Source: Brachybacterium tyrofermentans (GTDB lineage Bacteria; Actinomycetota; Actinomycetes; Actinomycetales; Dermabacteraceae). Taken from it: DNA of 64,000 nt. The DNA is taken from the NCBI RefSeq assembly GCF_014897585.1, contig NZ_JABUXW010000003.1:62001-126000 (forward strand), in the 5' to 3' direction. The notes below the pieces were generated by a model. That model saw only the letters and a program-made list of their open reading frames with translations, ran no database searches and was not told where the DNA came from. A program made the translations under genes and the position numbers. Of the stretch, positions 5,055 to 20,293 are shown one piece after another; the stretch's first letter is position 1, and every line of letters begins with the position of its first letter.

Positions 5055-6727
5055 AGCGCACCGTCCAGAGCGAGGGCGCGGTGCCTCTGGGGAGCCGGCG
5101 CCGCCAGGCGCAGTGCCTGGTCGAAGAACTCGAGCTCGTGTCGGCAGGCGACGAGATAGGCGCGAAGGGCTGCGGAGCGTGCCGCCGGCGCGGCGGCGGA
5201 GAGCTCCCGTTCGATCAGGTCGAGGGCGCCCTGCGTCGCGGTGACGAAGTCGGGATCGCGGTAGGTGTCGAGCCAGTCCGCATACGGGTGGCCCTCCGGG
5301 ACAGCCGGCAGCGTGGCCCCGGTCTGGGCGTAGAGCCAGTAGCAGGGCAGCACGGCGGCTGCGGCGACGACGCGGTCCTCGCCCTGGGTCGCGGCCAGCA
5401 GGAAGTCGGTGTACGCACTGGTCACAGGCGATATCTCGGGTTCCTCCCGGTCGCCGTTCCAGCTGCGGTGCAGAGCGGACTCGACGGTGAGGCAGTTCGC
5501 CGCGCCATGCGCCCAGAACACCTGAGCCTCGGGCTCGCTCGACGCAGCGGACAGCGCCGCGAGCGCCCGGGAGTACCGGCGCAGATACAGCGCGTCCTGA
5601 GCCAGGTAGAAGGAGAACTCCCGGTCGGGGAGGCTGCCGTCGACCAGGGCGCGCACGAAGTCCGAGTCCGCGACGGCTCGCGCGAGGGACTCCCCCGCCG
5701 ACCAGAAGGCGCGCGTCCAGGGTCCGGCCGGTGCGACGGCGGGCTCTAGGGCAGGTCCGACTGCGCCGGCGTCGGTGGGATCCGGGGTGCCCGCGTGAGG
5801 ACCGACCGCCGCGAGGGCCGGCACGTCCTCCGGGGTCTCGAGCGTCACCGGGATCCGGCCGGGCTCGAGCCAGGGGGTCGACTCCCCTGCCGCCTCGAGG
5901 CTGCGGGCGCGGTGGGAGTGGTCCACGGGACCGTGGCCTGTTCCGACACGCAGCGCCTCCCCGTGGGCGATCGCCTCGTGGAGCCACTGCGTGGCCCAGG
6001 TGAGAGCCGCCTGCGGGGTCCCGCCGCCGCCCAGCCGTGTCGCGAGCGCTGAGGCGAGGGAGCATCCGGTGCCATGGGTGCTGGTCGAGGTCAGGCGCGC
6101 CGAGTCGACCCGGTGCTCGAGACCATCGGGCTCCACCCACGTGTTCGTGACCTGCGGAGCCTCGAGATGACCTGTCTTCACCACCACGGCGACCCCGGTC
6201 CGTGCGGCCCACTGCCGGGCCTGCGCGAGCGCCTCCTGCTCGTCGGCCGCGCGCTCCGTCCCCGCCAGCCGGGCGAGCTCCTCGATGTTCGGGGTGACCA
6301 CGGTGGCGCGGGCGCAGAAGTCGATCATCGCCTGCTCCGCGTCCGGCTCCAGGAGGCTGTCCCCGCTGGTCGCGACCATCACCGGATCCACCACCAGGAT
6401 GTGCGGCGGATGCTCGTCGAGCCAGGCGGCGACGGTCGCGATGATCGCGGCGGTGCCGAGCATCCCGGTCTTGACCGCATCGATCTGCACGTCATCGCTC
6501 ACGGCGCGCAGCTGCTGGTCGAGGAAGGCGACCGGCGGCACGTGGATATCGCGCACTCCGCGGGTGTTCTGCGCGACCAGCGCGGTCACCACGCTCATGC
6601 CGTAGCCGCCGGCCGCCGTGATGGATTTGAGGTCCGCAGCGGTGCCGGCTCCTCCGGAGGGGTCGGTGCCGGCGATCGACAGCACGCGGGGAATTCGGGC
6701 AGGGTACGACGGAGCCACTGAGGACAT
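5051..6727 (-). CDS. thiD: Fusion of HMP/HMP-P kinase (ThiD) with TenA thiaminase II
   Basis: This 558-residue protein makes HMP-PP and recovers HMP from degraded thiamine. The N-terminal ThiD domain (about 15-290) has LSIAGTDPSGGAG, VVDPVMVATSG and THGTGCSLASAL with the catalytic Cys. After an Ala/Pro-rich linker, the TenA domain (about 340-550) shows LPCYWLY, carrying the TenA nucleophile Cys, and HELEFFDQAL with the matching Glu, so it looks like the Cys class. The ATG at 6727 is the first in-frame start after the aptamer core but abuts GAAGGG; a GTG at 6718 has better spacing and is a real alternative. Confidence 0.92.
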   Translation of the reverse strand: MSSVAPSYPARIPRVLSIAGTDPSGGAGTAADLKSITAAGGYGMSVVTALVAQNTRGVRDIHVPPVAFLDQQLRAVSDDVQIDAVKTGMLGTAAIIATVAAWLDEHPPHILVVDPVMVATSGDSLLEPDAEQAMIDFCARATVVTPNIEELARLAGTERAADEQEALAQARQWAARTGVAVVVKTGHLEAPQVTNTWVEPDGLEHRVDSARLTSTSTHGTGCSLASALATRLGGGGTPQAALTWATQWLHEAIAHGEALRVGTGHGPVDHSHRARSLEAAGESTPWLEPGRIPVTLETPEDVPALAAVGPHAGTPDPTDAGAVGPALEPAVAPAGPWTRAFWSAGESLARAVADSDFVRALVDGSLPDREFSFYLAQDALYLRRYSRALAALSAASSEPEAQVFWAHGAANCLTVESALHRSWNGDREEPEISPVTSAYTDFLLAATQGEDRVVAAAAVLPCYWLYAQTGATLPAVPEGHPYADWLDTYRDPDFVTATQGALDLIERELSAAAPAARSAALRAYLVACRHELEFFDQALRLAAPAPQRHRALALDGAL

Positions 6728-6798
6728 CCCTTCGCTAGTACGAACTAGATCAGGTTCCACGGGTGTGATCTCAGCGCCGGACGGCGCACCCCGTGTCC
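6722..6798 (-). promoter_or_regulatory. TPP riboswitch (THI element)
   Basis: Read on the minus strand, the region has the conserved TPP aptamer blocks in order: GGGGTGC, GCTGAGATCACACCCG, GAACCTGATCTAG, then TACTAGCGAAGGG. P1 can form between GGACA (6798-6794) and TGTCC (6726-6722). The 3' side of P1 contains the first start codon of thiD-tenA, and the SD-like GAAGGG lies just before it, so ligand binding should hide the initiation region. This implies translational control of the whole coupled operon. Confidence 0.95.
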
Positions 6799-6805
6799 GC
6801 GGGCC

Positions 6806-18199: not shown

Positions 18200-18791
18200 T
18201 CCGCTCGAGGCGGCGTTCGCGGAGCTGCAGCTCGCCCGCGACGCCGCCTCCGGCCCCGAGATGGCCGCGGAGTACACGGCGCTGCTGCAGGGCTCCCCGA
18301 ACGCCCTCTATCGCGAGGGCGGCCCCCGCCACCTCACGGCGAGCGCCGTGGTGATCGACGCTCCCGGAGAGCACATCGCTCTGGTGTGGCATCGCAAGGG
18401 CAGCTTCTGGGTGCAGCCCGGCGGACATCTCGAAGCGGGCGAGACGAGCTTCGAGCTCGCCGCGCGCCGCGAGGTCGCCGAAGAGGTCGGCCTGTCCGCG
18501 CTGGAGCGCGTGGGGCCGGGCCCCGCGGTCCTGCACAGTCATCAACTCGATGCGGCCTTCGGTGCCTGCGCGGAGCATTGGGACGTGCAGTTCCTCCTGC
18601 GCGCCCCCGGTCCGGCCTCTGCGACGCCCCTGGCCACGAGCGACGAGTCCCCCGAGGTGCGCTGGATCCCCTGGCCGCTCCTGGATGGCGGCCCGTCCCG
18701 CTCCACCGCGCACCTGCCCGAGGGCACCGTGCCCGATATGGCGGCGAAGCTCGACGCGCTCGCCCCGATCCTGGCCAGCTACTCGGACTGA
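18189..18791 (+). CDS. NUDIX hydrolase
   Basis: This 200-residue protein has a complete NUDIX box, GGHLEAGETSFELAARREVAEEVGL, starting at about residue 79, so it should hydrolyse a nucleoside diphosphate linked to another moiety. The substrate cannot be read from sequence. The ATG lies 11 nt inside the end of the DUF2342 gene, which implies translational coupling. Its 3' end overlaps the convergent YgjP-like gene by 13 nt. Confidence 0.88.
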   Translation: MGADPLEAAFAELQLARDAASGPEMAAEYTALLQGSPNALYREGGPRHLTASAVVIDAPGEHIALVWHRKGSFWVQPGGHLEAGETSFELAARREVAEEVGLSALERVGPGPAVLHSHQLDAAFGACAEHWDVQFLLRAPGPASATPLATSDESPEVRWIPWPLLDGGPSRSTAHLPEGTVPDMAAKLDALAPILASYSD

Positions 18792-19414
18792 GCCTGCGTT
18801 CGTCGCTCCGGATCCCGGACCGAGTCCTGGTCCGGCTCGTGCTCCAGATCTCCGTCCAGCTCCGCGGACGGCAGGCTCCGCGCCCAGGAGAACCCGTCCA
18901 GGAAGCCCTGCGCCTTCTGCGCCTGGGGGTACAGCGCCATCAGCGCCTGGAACTCCTTGCCGTGGCCCGGCACGAGGAGATGGACGAGCTCGTGCATCAT
19001 CACCGAGCGCACGACGTAGTCCGGCATGTCCTGCAGCTGATGCGAGAGCCGGATCGTGCCGTCGGCCGGCGTGCAGGACCCCCAGCGGTGGTTCTGGCGG
19101 GTGGACCACGTGACCGAGGACGGGTGGGCCCGGCCCCCGAGATATGCCTCACTGACTTCTCGGGCCATCCGGGCGAGAGCCTCATCACCGCGCCGGGTCC
19201 TCGTGGTCCGAGCCTCTTTCCTGACCAGCTGGTCGACCATCTTCGTGACCCAGTCCCGTTCCTGCCGCGCGCTGAACGTCGCGGGGATCGCGATCACGAG
19301 ATCCCCGTCGCGCCGGCTGATCGACACCGTGCGGCGCCGGCGCGCCGACCGACGGACCATCACCCGCTCCCCGCGAGGGCCGGCGACGTTCTCCTGGAGG
19401 ACGAGATCACTCAT
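18779..19414 (-). CDS. YgjP-like (DUF45) zinc metallopeptidase
   Basis: This 211-residue protein is related to SprT/YgjP metallopeptidases. The zinc site is HELVHLLVPGHGKEF (about residues 142-156), preceded by the family motif RWGSCTPADGTIRLSHQL. The last 35 or so residues are acidic and charged and look disordered. The start at 19414 begins a 530-bp gene-free region on its upstream side. Family members are often near uvrD or type I restriction genes; the physiological substrate is unknown. Confidence 0.87.
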   Translation of the reverse strand: MSDLVLQENVAGPRGERVMVRRSARRRRTVSISRRDGDLVIAIPATFSARQERDWVTKMVDQLVRKEARTTRTRRGDEALARMAREVSEAYLGGRAHPSSVTWSTRQNHRWGSCTPADGTIRLSHQLQDMPDYVVRSVMMHELVHLLVPGHGKEFQALMALYPQAQKAQGFLDGFSWARSLPSAELDGDLEHEPDQDSVRDPERRTQAQSE

Positions 19415-19450
19415 GGGGAGAAGCCTGGCACGATCCGGGGCAGAATATCT

Positions 19451-19574
19451 TCATCCACAACCGAGCCCGCGAGAGGAAACCTTTCGGGGCCGTGACCTGC
19501 AGGAATGCATCTTCCTCCACAGTCGCCGCCGCACCGTCCCGAACCTGTCCACACCCATTGCGGGGTTGTCCACA
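19451..19574 (+). promoter_or_regulatory. Cluster of four DnaA-box-like 9-mers
   Basis: Four same-strand motifs occur in 124 bp: TCATCCACA at 19451, TCCTCCACA at 19513, CTGTCCACA at 19545 and TTGTCCACA at 19566. The last is the exact high-GC actinobacterial DnaA-box consensus, and 19451 and 19545 differ by one base from TTATCCACA or TTGTCCACA. The cluster lies directly upstream of the promoter at 19594. Binding by DnaA is inference. Confidence 0.5.
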
Positions 19575-19593
19575 GTCGGTCCCCGACGGCCCT

Positions 19594-19623
19594 TTGACCG
19601 GTGCCGCTCCCAGGGGCTAGGTT
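19594..19623 (+). promoter_or_regulatory. Strong housekeeping-type promoter before the hairpin RNA
   Basis: TTGACC (19594-19599) and TAGGTT (19618-19623) are separated by 18 bp. The predicted start site is 19630-19631, just before the first base of the long stem at 19632. No protein-coding gene begins soon after it. Confidence 0.65.
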
Positions 19624-19630
19624 TCCCTGC

Positions 19631-19724
19631 ACGTGGGACCCCGGGATAACTAGCAGGACGCACACGGGGAAGGTGCGCGTGGTGCTGAGCGCCCCCGGGG
19701 TCCCACGGCCCTTCAGGCCTCTTT
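19631..19724 (+). ncRNA. Candidate small structured RNA (about 76-nt hairpin plus 3' hairpin)
   Basis: A perfect 14-bp stem joins 19632-19645 and 19694-19707. Inside it, UAGCA pairs with UGCUG and CGCAC with GUGCG, giving one long irregular hairpin with an apical loop containing GGGGAAG. It is followed by a GGCC-CTTCA-GGCC hairpin and TCTTT (19707-19724) that could terminate transcription. A good promoter ends 7-8 nt upstream. There is no reading frame or SD. It could instead be the 5' leader of the DUF5679 gene 220 bp downstream. It does not show the conserved SRP RNA core. Confidence 0.55.
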
Positions 19725-19944
19725 GCGCCTACGGGGCCTCCGTTGTCGGTTCGTCGCGCGCACTTCCTCGGCTCTCCGTTGAGCCTCCTGATCCCGAAGC
19801 GCGCGACGGGCCGCCCCGTTCGGAGCATCCCTCGATTCGTTCGGCTCCACCGCCCCCCGTTACAGTGGATCGATCCCGGCCTCGCGGCGAGAGCTGCGCG
19901 TCCGGGGAACCGAACATCACCATCGATTCCCACAAGGAGCGGAT

Positions 19945-20103
19945 ATGGCCGACGAGACCTATGCCGGAGAGTTCTACTGCGTCAAGTGCCGCGAGAAGCG
20001 GGAGGCCGAGGGCAACGTCGTCGTCTCCAACGGTCGCCGCATGGCGAAGGCTGTGTGCCCGGAGTGCGGCACGAAGCTCAACCGCATCCTGGGCAAGGCC
20101 TGA
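19945..20103 (+). CDS. Small zinc-ribbon protein (DUF5679)
   Basis: This 52-residue actinobacterial protein has two CxxC pairs, Cys12-Cys15 and Cys38-Cys41, with a basic loop between them, consistent with a zinc ribbon. The sequence CVKCREKREAEG and CPECGTKLNRILGK is typical of the DUF5679 family. AAGGAG at 19934-19939 lies 5 nt before the ATG. A possible -10, TACAGT, is at 19861-19866. Its function is unknown; nucleic acid or ribosome binding is plausible for a small basic ribbon. The stop codon lies inside the first 40-bp repeat. Confidence 0.88.
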   Translation: MADETYAGEFYCVKCREKREAEGNVVVSNGRRMAKAVCPECGTKLNRILGKA

Positions 20104-20139
20104 TCGACGTACCGCGAGGTACGAGCGGTAGGAGATCAG
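20100..20139. repeat. 40-bp palindromic repeat, copy 1
   Basis: The unit is bounded by CTGATC and GATCAG and contains an inner GTACC-GCGA-GGTAC hairpin. It overlaps the DUF5679 stop codon. It is identical over 40 bp (41 with one flanking G) to copy 2. Confidence 0.9.
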
Positions 20140-20154
20140 GCGATCCTGACACTC

Positions 20155-20194
20155 CTGATCGACGTACCGCGAGGTACGAGCGGTAGGAGATCAG
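20155..20194. repeat. 40-bp palindromic repeat, copy 2
   Basis: This copy is identical to the unit at 20100-20139 and lies 15 bp after it in direct orientation. Each copy can fold into a cruciform, like REP-type intergenic elements. Confidence 0.9.
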
Positions 20195-20233
20195 GGGCTG
20201 GAGACAGCCTGATCCGACCGGCCTGATGCACGA

Positions 20234-20270
20234 CGAGGGGCGAGACACCATGACGGTGTCTCGCCCCTCG
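20234..20270. terminator. Bidirectional terminator between DUF5679 and whiB7 genes
   Basis: A perfect 16-bp stem joins 20234-20249 and 20255-20270 around the loop ATGAC. It sits between convergent genes and can serve both. No strong U-tract is seen on either side. Confidence 0.8.
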
Positions 20271-20293
20271 TGCATGCGGCCTCGGGCGGTGCC

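Follow-up and report, generated by a model that had tools for sequence, protein, structure and literature searches.

The window analysed here is a 64-kb stretch of DNA from contig C51 of genome G000 (G000:C51:62001-126000). Its DUF5679 protein has its nearest named loci in Brachybacterium, which assigns the genome to this group. A gene for a YgjP/SprT-like metallopeptidase (18779..19414, - strand; Pfam PF01863 and PF10263) is the divergent neighbour and syntenic anchor of a small RNA, which is provisionally placed at 19630..19710 of the + strand with a predicted start at 19629-19631. The next gene downstream in the window encodes a DUF5679 zinc-ribbon protein (19945..20103, + strand; PF18930), and its start at 19945 lies about 238 nt past the stem of the RNA. 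Between the DUF5679 gene and a WhiB gene (20101-20275), two near-identical copies of a stretch starting tgatcgacgtaccgcgaggtacgagcggtaggagatcagg were seen by eye, followed by a long inverted repeat (gaggggcgagacacc ... ggtgtctcgcccctc). The sole gathering-level Rfam match of the window is a TPP riboswitch (RF00059, 69.5 bits, 6710-6803, - strand), an ordinary known element.

When the RNA was folded, a hairpin was predicted at 19632-19707 of the + strand with an energy of -60 kcal/mol (z = -2.75), and 2 of 200 shuffled sequences folded equally well. The perfect 14-bp stem that had been pointed out from 19632 onwards was recovered as helix P1, in which the 5' arm (19632-19645) pairs with a 3' arm at 19694-19707 (both on the + strand) according to fold and covariation. 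Two further helices are predicted inside P1, below the apical loop. The P3 hairpin (19659..19677, + strand) is formed by pairing of 19659-19663 with 19673-19677, again by fold and covariation. It is capped by a 9-nt apical loop, ACGGGGAAG (19664-19672, + strand), in which the word GGGGAAG occupies 19666-19672. The length of the RNA is estimated at about 75-90 nt, and the shortest homologous hairpin measures 52 nt.

An internal-loop stretch, AUAAC (19646..19650, + strand), is kept in the close relatives and in several other families. However, it was rejected as a universal core of the RNA as it was not seen in L197, L199, L200, L201, L203 and L206, and thus the apical loop was taken as the core. 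All 55 RNAs in the aligned set, from which four rows had been dropped beforehand, carry the loop word GGGGAAG. The one homologous hairpin known to be without GGGGAAG belongs to G314, a genome of the window's family (L190/L207), in which the stem, the promoter and one box are kept. A likeness of CCCCGGGAUAAC to what we take to be 23S rRNA sequence near the peptidyl-transferase centre is probably due to chance because its U varies.

Alignment of 26 close-relative loci (the window and 25 named loci from Brachybacterium, Helcobacillus, Dermabacteraceae and one MAG called Actinomycetales) showed that the hairpin and the promoter are conserved compared with the diverged flanks. In 22 close relatives (20 distinct rows), 97.5 % of the pair cells are standard and both-side changes occur in 9 of 24 pairs. 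None of 500 shuffles of this set matched the observed value on four of five measures, and 44 of 500 reached it on the fifth (the number of pair types). In the case of 31 diverse loci, 96.6 % of the cells pair and both-side changes are found in 20 of 24 pairs (163 cells), in an alignment that was fitted to the covariance model and hence leans towards the structure. For these loci, 0 of 500 shuffles reached any of the five covariation measures. The signal is lost when the pairing partners are shifted by 1 to 3 columns. Both-side changes are present in 12 of the 13 modelled P1 pairs of alignment A5. The compensatory changes in relatives, which had been named as a check in the sequence-only reading, are therefore strong in both sets, and conserved helices with such changes are as expected for a stand-alone structured small RNA. 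When read on the + strand, G-U cells outnumber A-C cells by 106 to 25 across 55 loci, so the + strand is taken as the RNA strand; these loci are not independent and include several close relatives and apparent duplicates (e.g. L028/L125 and L026/L127).

The promoter proposed for the RNA, TTGACC-18-TAGGTT, was also upheld. Its -35 element (TTGACC, 19594-19599) and -10 element (TAGGTT, 19618-19623), both on the + strand and separated by an 18-nt spacer, are conserved in alignment A1. A promoter pattern scan of the window sequence found none, and the single sequence is weak by consensus. Among the homologues, however, 47 of 55 loci have the pattern TTGAC-N17/18-TANNNT with its end 2-10 nt ahead of the modelled stem, and in 41 of those 47 the distance is 7-10 nt. 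By pattern and gene order only, the RNA has its own promoter and is independent of the downstream gene, and from this we infer that it is probably transcribed as a unit of its own. The promoter and stem of the stand-alone layout described earlier are thus retained, but its terminator is not, as the scan found none and the small hairpin with TCTTT lies in a stretch that is not conserved in the alignment. TTT is found within 15 nt 3' of the stem in only 15 of 55 loci, and a plain T-rich stretch directly follows the stem in L143-L146.

No Rfam 15 family was matched in 19400-19960 at the gathering score, or even at E<=10, and 18 homologous loci, searched at E<=1, gave no match on the RNA either. 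The RNA is also not matched by the model of mraW RNA (RF01746). The lack of a covariance-model match rules out the known Rfam families and agrees with the first impression that the RNA is not SRP RNA, 6S RNA, RNase P or tmRNA. No published account of it was found in the open-licence literature searched. Within the limits of Rfam 15 and this literature, the small RNA appears to be undescribed. A novel stand-alone small RNA gene, as initially suggested, is the reading best supported by the absence of an Rfam match, the covariation and the gene context, and on these sequence data we consider the RNA gene almost certainly real.

The distribution of the RNA was analyzed with three covariance models. 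At the order level, 36 of 396 genomes matched model R1, and at the class level 32 of 296. The broader model R2 gave matches in 50 of 297 order genomes, in 7 of 246 genomes of the phylum sample, and in 108 of 296 sampled class genomes from 56 of 114 genera, a tally in which not every match was inspected and at least one (G034) is false. One genome, G565, has an R1 match at 4.5e-4 and is missing from the R2 list. In the window's family, 32 of 34 listed genomes match R1, and the other two are G174, which was found by R2, and the loop variant G314. The seven matches in the phylum sample consist of the window's own genome, two loci of family f70 outside the class (L147 and L149) and four false matches (L148, L150, L151 and L152). 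L147 and L149 are convincing by eye, with the promoter, the boxes and a YgjP-like neighbour present. The four false matches were dropped by eye from a 59-row set; they were already included in model R3, and thus their R3 scores are circular. A check after dropping showed that all ten neighbour genes are missing from them and that TCCACA does not occur in the 250 nt upstream, and open-frame length did not separate them from the retained loci.

Locus L192 was found with model R3. L178, a diverged copy without boxes, was recognised by eye, and it was also picked out when loci without the RNA were scanned for GGGGAAG in an apical loop, a scan that gave two candidates of which only L178 is convincing. 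L208 and L210 look false. L209 (G687:C1:42664-42739; E=0.002) is uncertain, being a possible homologue outside the class with a TTTGGGGAAGG loop, a T-rich tail and no boxes. In L052 (5454-5531, - strand), a weak R2 match (E=0.07) containing GGGAGAAC and AGGGGAAG lies about 2.3 kb beyond DUF5679 and is possibly a relocated homologue.

The loop word GGGGAAG is exactly complementary to CUUCCCC, which forms the loop of an Rfam family, mraW RNA (RF01746), located between mraZ and rsmH. In the window genome, mraZ, the RF01746 match (62.2 bits, above the cut-off) and rsmH are found in that order, and the match (G000:C51:163883-163984) is 82 kb from the RNA on the same contig. When the two loops were compared in 42 genomes, the window's included, both CTTCCCC and GGGGAAG were exact in all 42; these are a subset of the 79 genomes with both matches, and G034 was also pulled and then dropped as it has no RNA. 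Each of the 42 genomes therefore holds two exactly complementary loops, as a kissing contact would need, and exposure of the loops is predicted. The loop duplex has an energy of -16.4 kcal/mol, and 2 of 2000 shuffled loop pairs were equally strong. A duplex fold of the whole RNAs was set aside because it ignores internal structure. Pairing seldom reaches past the 7-mer in the 42 genomes. No compensatory change was seen across the proposed contact, since both loop words are invariant in the compared set.

A complement search was also carried out with CCTTCCCC in four small genomes of family f44, and all 66 sites, including four antisense copies of the RNA itself, were fetched and folded. An apical-loop fold was predicted at 10 of the 66 sites, and the two strongest local folds were the mraZ-rsmH hairpins: in G437 and G649, the gap between mraZ and rsmH contains a strong hairpin with one CCTTCCCC site as its loop. 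RF01746 matches these two hairpins with 39.4 bits (E 1.1e-5) and 35.5 bits (E 1.2e-4), both under the cut-off of 50, and a third f44 locus (L262) with 25.4 bits. In L241, L227 and L257, a conserved CCTTCCCC site was seen between a cold-shock-type gene (MATGTVKWFN..., identified by eye) and a divergent gene. This site is present in three of the four f44 genomes and is a possible second partner of the RNA loop.

When the 296 class genomes were searched with RF01746 at E<=0.01, 211 matched, 82 of them above the family cut-off, compared with 108 genomes with the RNA. In the control set of 14 genomes, Thermus composti and C. glutamicum also matched, and one of these two matches exceeds the cut-off. 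Both RNAs were found in 79 genomes, the small RNA only in 29, mraW RNA only in 132 and neither in 56, and no association was observed. The mraW loop is intact in 20 of 20 chosen genomes where the RNA was not found. It is also intact in the 30 of 30 top-scoring loci, among which only G023 and G487 have the RNA. Since the mraW loop is kept without the RNA, either a relocated partner exists elsewhere or the mraW loop has another partner or function. In G314, neither the mraW motif nor the mraZ-rsmH region was found in the searched parts of contig C28, which make up nearly all of it. For C. glutamicum, an observed start site listed for mraW in an excerpt of PMC3890552 (2,266,932) lies inside the motif (2,267,021-2,266,916), so the transcript starting there would lack the loop.

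These data have to be weighed against the explanation that the DnaA-box-linked small RNA is real and its loop binds a protein or other mRNAs, so that the match to mraW RNA is a coincidence or a minor contact. Such an explanation would agree with an mraW loop that is conserved regardless of whether the RNA is found, with the lack of compensatory changes across the contact and with further conserved CCTTCCCC sites such as that on the cold-shock side, but it leaves to chance both the exact 7-nt complementarity of two conserved loop words of structured RNAs in all 42 genomes and the top rank of the mraZ-rsmH hairpins among the 10 apical-loop sites. We regard it as possible and, on the whole, rather doubtful. 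On the sequence data, we lean slightly towards the mraW loop being the target of the RNA.

Upstream of the promoter, four DnaA-box-like TCCACA words are located on the + strand at 19454-19459, 19516-19521, 19548-19553 and 19569-19574, and the last one is part of a full TTGTCCACA (19566-19574). The DnaA box is TTATCCACA/TTGTCCACA. Both TGTCCACA words of the window and 4 of its 16 TCCACA words fall in 19454..19574. Neither word is in excess across the window, and it is the clustering that stands out. When TCCACA was counted at 55 loci by distance from the stem, the sense word was found 78 times in the bin -100..-1, 69 times in -200..-101 and 14 times in -300..-201. Of the other 28 bins, 23 contained 0 or 1 copies and the highest 9, and all antisense bins contained 7 or fewer. 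The copies recur near -63, -74, -85, -107/-117, -130 and -195/-205. Two or more copies are present within 250 nt at 48 of 51 loci outside family f44, and no box is found within 250 nt of the RNA at the four f44 loci, L107 and L178.

The letters flanking the boxes (YYRTCCACAG) resemble those around TCCACA at dnaA (223 words from the dnaA loci in 24 genomes), where the letter before TCCACA is more mixed than at the RNA loci. Direct triple clusters in 12 genomes gave 54 matches, partly overlapping, versus 5 for the reversed pattern. The RNA locus has such a cluster in nine of the 12, and none is found there in G004, G062 and G582. Among YgjP-anchored loci without a recognised RNA, 16 of 17 contain no more than a single sense TCCACA in the 500 nt around the anchor; four of those 16, the last ones, have weak anchor matches only (E 1e-13 to 1e-7). 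YgjP-anchored loci with a recognised RNA contain three sense TCCACA words in L192, one in L190 and none in L178. At a YgjP-like locus of G015 (L182), a five-box TCCACA array was seen with no recognisable RNA behind it. Judging from the position and recurrence of these words, DnaA boxes probably control the RNA promoter, which would involve binding of DnaA to the array.

The distance from the RNA to dnaA, in percent of the circumference, is 23-36 in the window's family, 12-21 in f44, 43-47 in f7 and 26-33 in f45; these values are approximate, with rounded genome sizes used for most genomes. A location of the RNA locus at the replication origin was rejected as it is far from dnaA. Overlapping triple TCCACA clusters were observed about 11 kb from the dnaA domain match in the window genome (G000:C11:107852-107915), with similar distances in G011, G118, G146 and G255, and because of this the Brachybacterium origin may be some distance from dnaA.

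Alternatively, the locus could mainly be a DNA element, that is, a DnaA-titrating or -reactivating cluster like datA/DARS or the Streptomyces cluster, with the transcript being secondary. It does consist mostly of two to five consecutive box-like words at recurring positions, in an intergenic cluster far from dnaA. Clusters of boxes off the origin are likewise found in datA/DARS of E. coli and in the datA-like clusters of S. coelicolor and B. subtilis, and in the latter two species they restrain initiation, according to an excerpt of PMC5742627. In contrast to datA/DARS, the present cluster of predicted boxes is tied to the promoter of a structured RNA. A role as DNA only is also difficult to combine with helices that covary at the RNA level while the loop word and the promoter stay constant, or with the f44 loci and L178, which retain the RNA without the array. 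We therefore consider this explanation unlikely.

The loop CUUCCCC of mraW RNA might also pair in cis with the ribosome-binding site of rsmH, with the small RNA competing as a mimic of that site. GGGGAAGG or AGGGGAG is indeed present near the start in some rsmH leaders (G649 and G000). However, when the best 7-nt match ahead of rsmH was taken at each of 31 loci, the mean was 5.74 pairs, compared with 5.78 for shuffled sequences, and cis pairing, which shows no excess over shuffles, was rejected; the competition model is accordingly very improbable.

The neighbourhood of the RNA is conserved. The YgjP/SprT-like peptidase was found in 45 and DUF5679 in 37 of 54 homologous loci within the stretches examined, and each of the 54 non-window loci contains at least one of ten tested neighbour proteins of the window. 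The conserved setting beside the DUF5679 gene that the sequence-only reading had described is hence confirmed by synteny. DUF5679 is the next recognised gene in many loci, a PDZ/Lon protease takes this place in L102, L103, L105, L110, L112, L113 and L115, a YgjP-like peptidase in L111, and a convergent zincin in L143-L146. Around DUF5679 in other families, 55 named loci gave no match below E=0.07. The RNA might be a leader or riboswitch of DUF5679, a long leader having been the alternative first offered, and in the window's family it does lie on the same strand upstream of DUF5679, whose match begins 172-378 nt after the RNA start, but a dedicated leader is excluded because different lineages have different genes as the next recognised one, in some of them a convergent gene, and with the 55 other DUF5679 loci lacking a convincing match this idea retains hardly any probability.

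Taken together, we propose that the locus encodes a short stand-alone structured regulatory RNA, which would be made from its own housekeeping-type promoter and whose promoter DnaA would control through the box array just upstream. The 7-nt core GGGGAAG of its 9-nt apical loop would kiss the CUUCCCC loop of mraW RNA, the cis-regulatory hairpin that heads the division and cell-wall cluster and lies between mraZ and rsmH (mraW). Such a contact could tune rsmH and the division and cell-wall genes after it in step with replication initiation or the DnaA level, and the influence on these genes may be of either sign. In our judgement of the sequence evidence, the idea of a DnaA-controlled trans-acting small RNA that kisses the mraW leader has, in its loose overall form, an even chance of being correct. 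The broadest version, in which the RNA is old enough to be shared by several classes of Actinomycetota and wires replication initiation directly to the division and cell-wall cluster by kissing the mraW leader, is put forward tentatively, as it is more apt to fail than to hold. Three features are new with respect to the sequence-only reading, namely the upstream array of DnaA-box-like words, the broad distribution of the RNA and the complementarity between its loop and that of mraW RNA.

The small RNA and mraW RNA are alike in being actinobacterial hairpins whose 9-nt apical loop contains a conserved word of 7 nt. They differ in that mraW RNA is a cis element between mraZ and rsmH with the loop CUUCCCC, whereas the RNA described here has a gene of its own and the complementary loop. 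In ColE1, the hairpin loops of RNA I and RNA II kiss through about 7 nt. RNA I and RNA II are mutually antisense, whereas the genes considered here are separate, 82 kb apart in the window genome and related only through their loop words. An antisense RNA of dnaA has reportedly been found in B. subtilis (PMC12112137) and is a precedent. EcpR1 of the Rhizobiales, in the text excerpted from PMC4414408, is a conserved trans-acting cell-cycle small RNA that pairs via a strongly conserved loop, as is proposed here too. According to the same excerpt, EcpR1 represses the dnaA and gcrA mRNAs and belongs to the stringent response. The present RNA has DnaA-type sites upstream and the mraW leader as its proposed target.

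Since 2010, mraW RNA has figured among the cis-regulatory motifs, with its switch status given as "?" (Table 1 in the excerpt of PMC2864571). No account of what acts on it was found in the open-licence literature searched. If true, a DnaA-controlled kissing RNA would explain the function of the mraW RNA motif, and genomes with mraW RNA and no small RNA at this locus would carry a relocated partner. In our own judgement, the coordination of replication and division in actinobacteria is an open question. The present data suggest an RNA link between DNA replication and cell division, and an RNA with initiator-type boxes and a loop complementary to mraW RNA makes both this question and that of mraW RNA directly testable.
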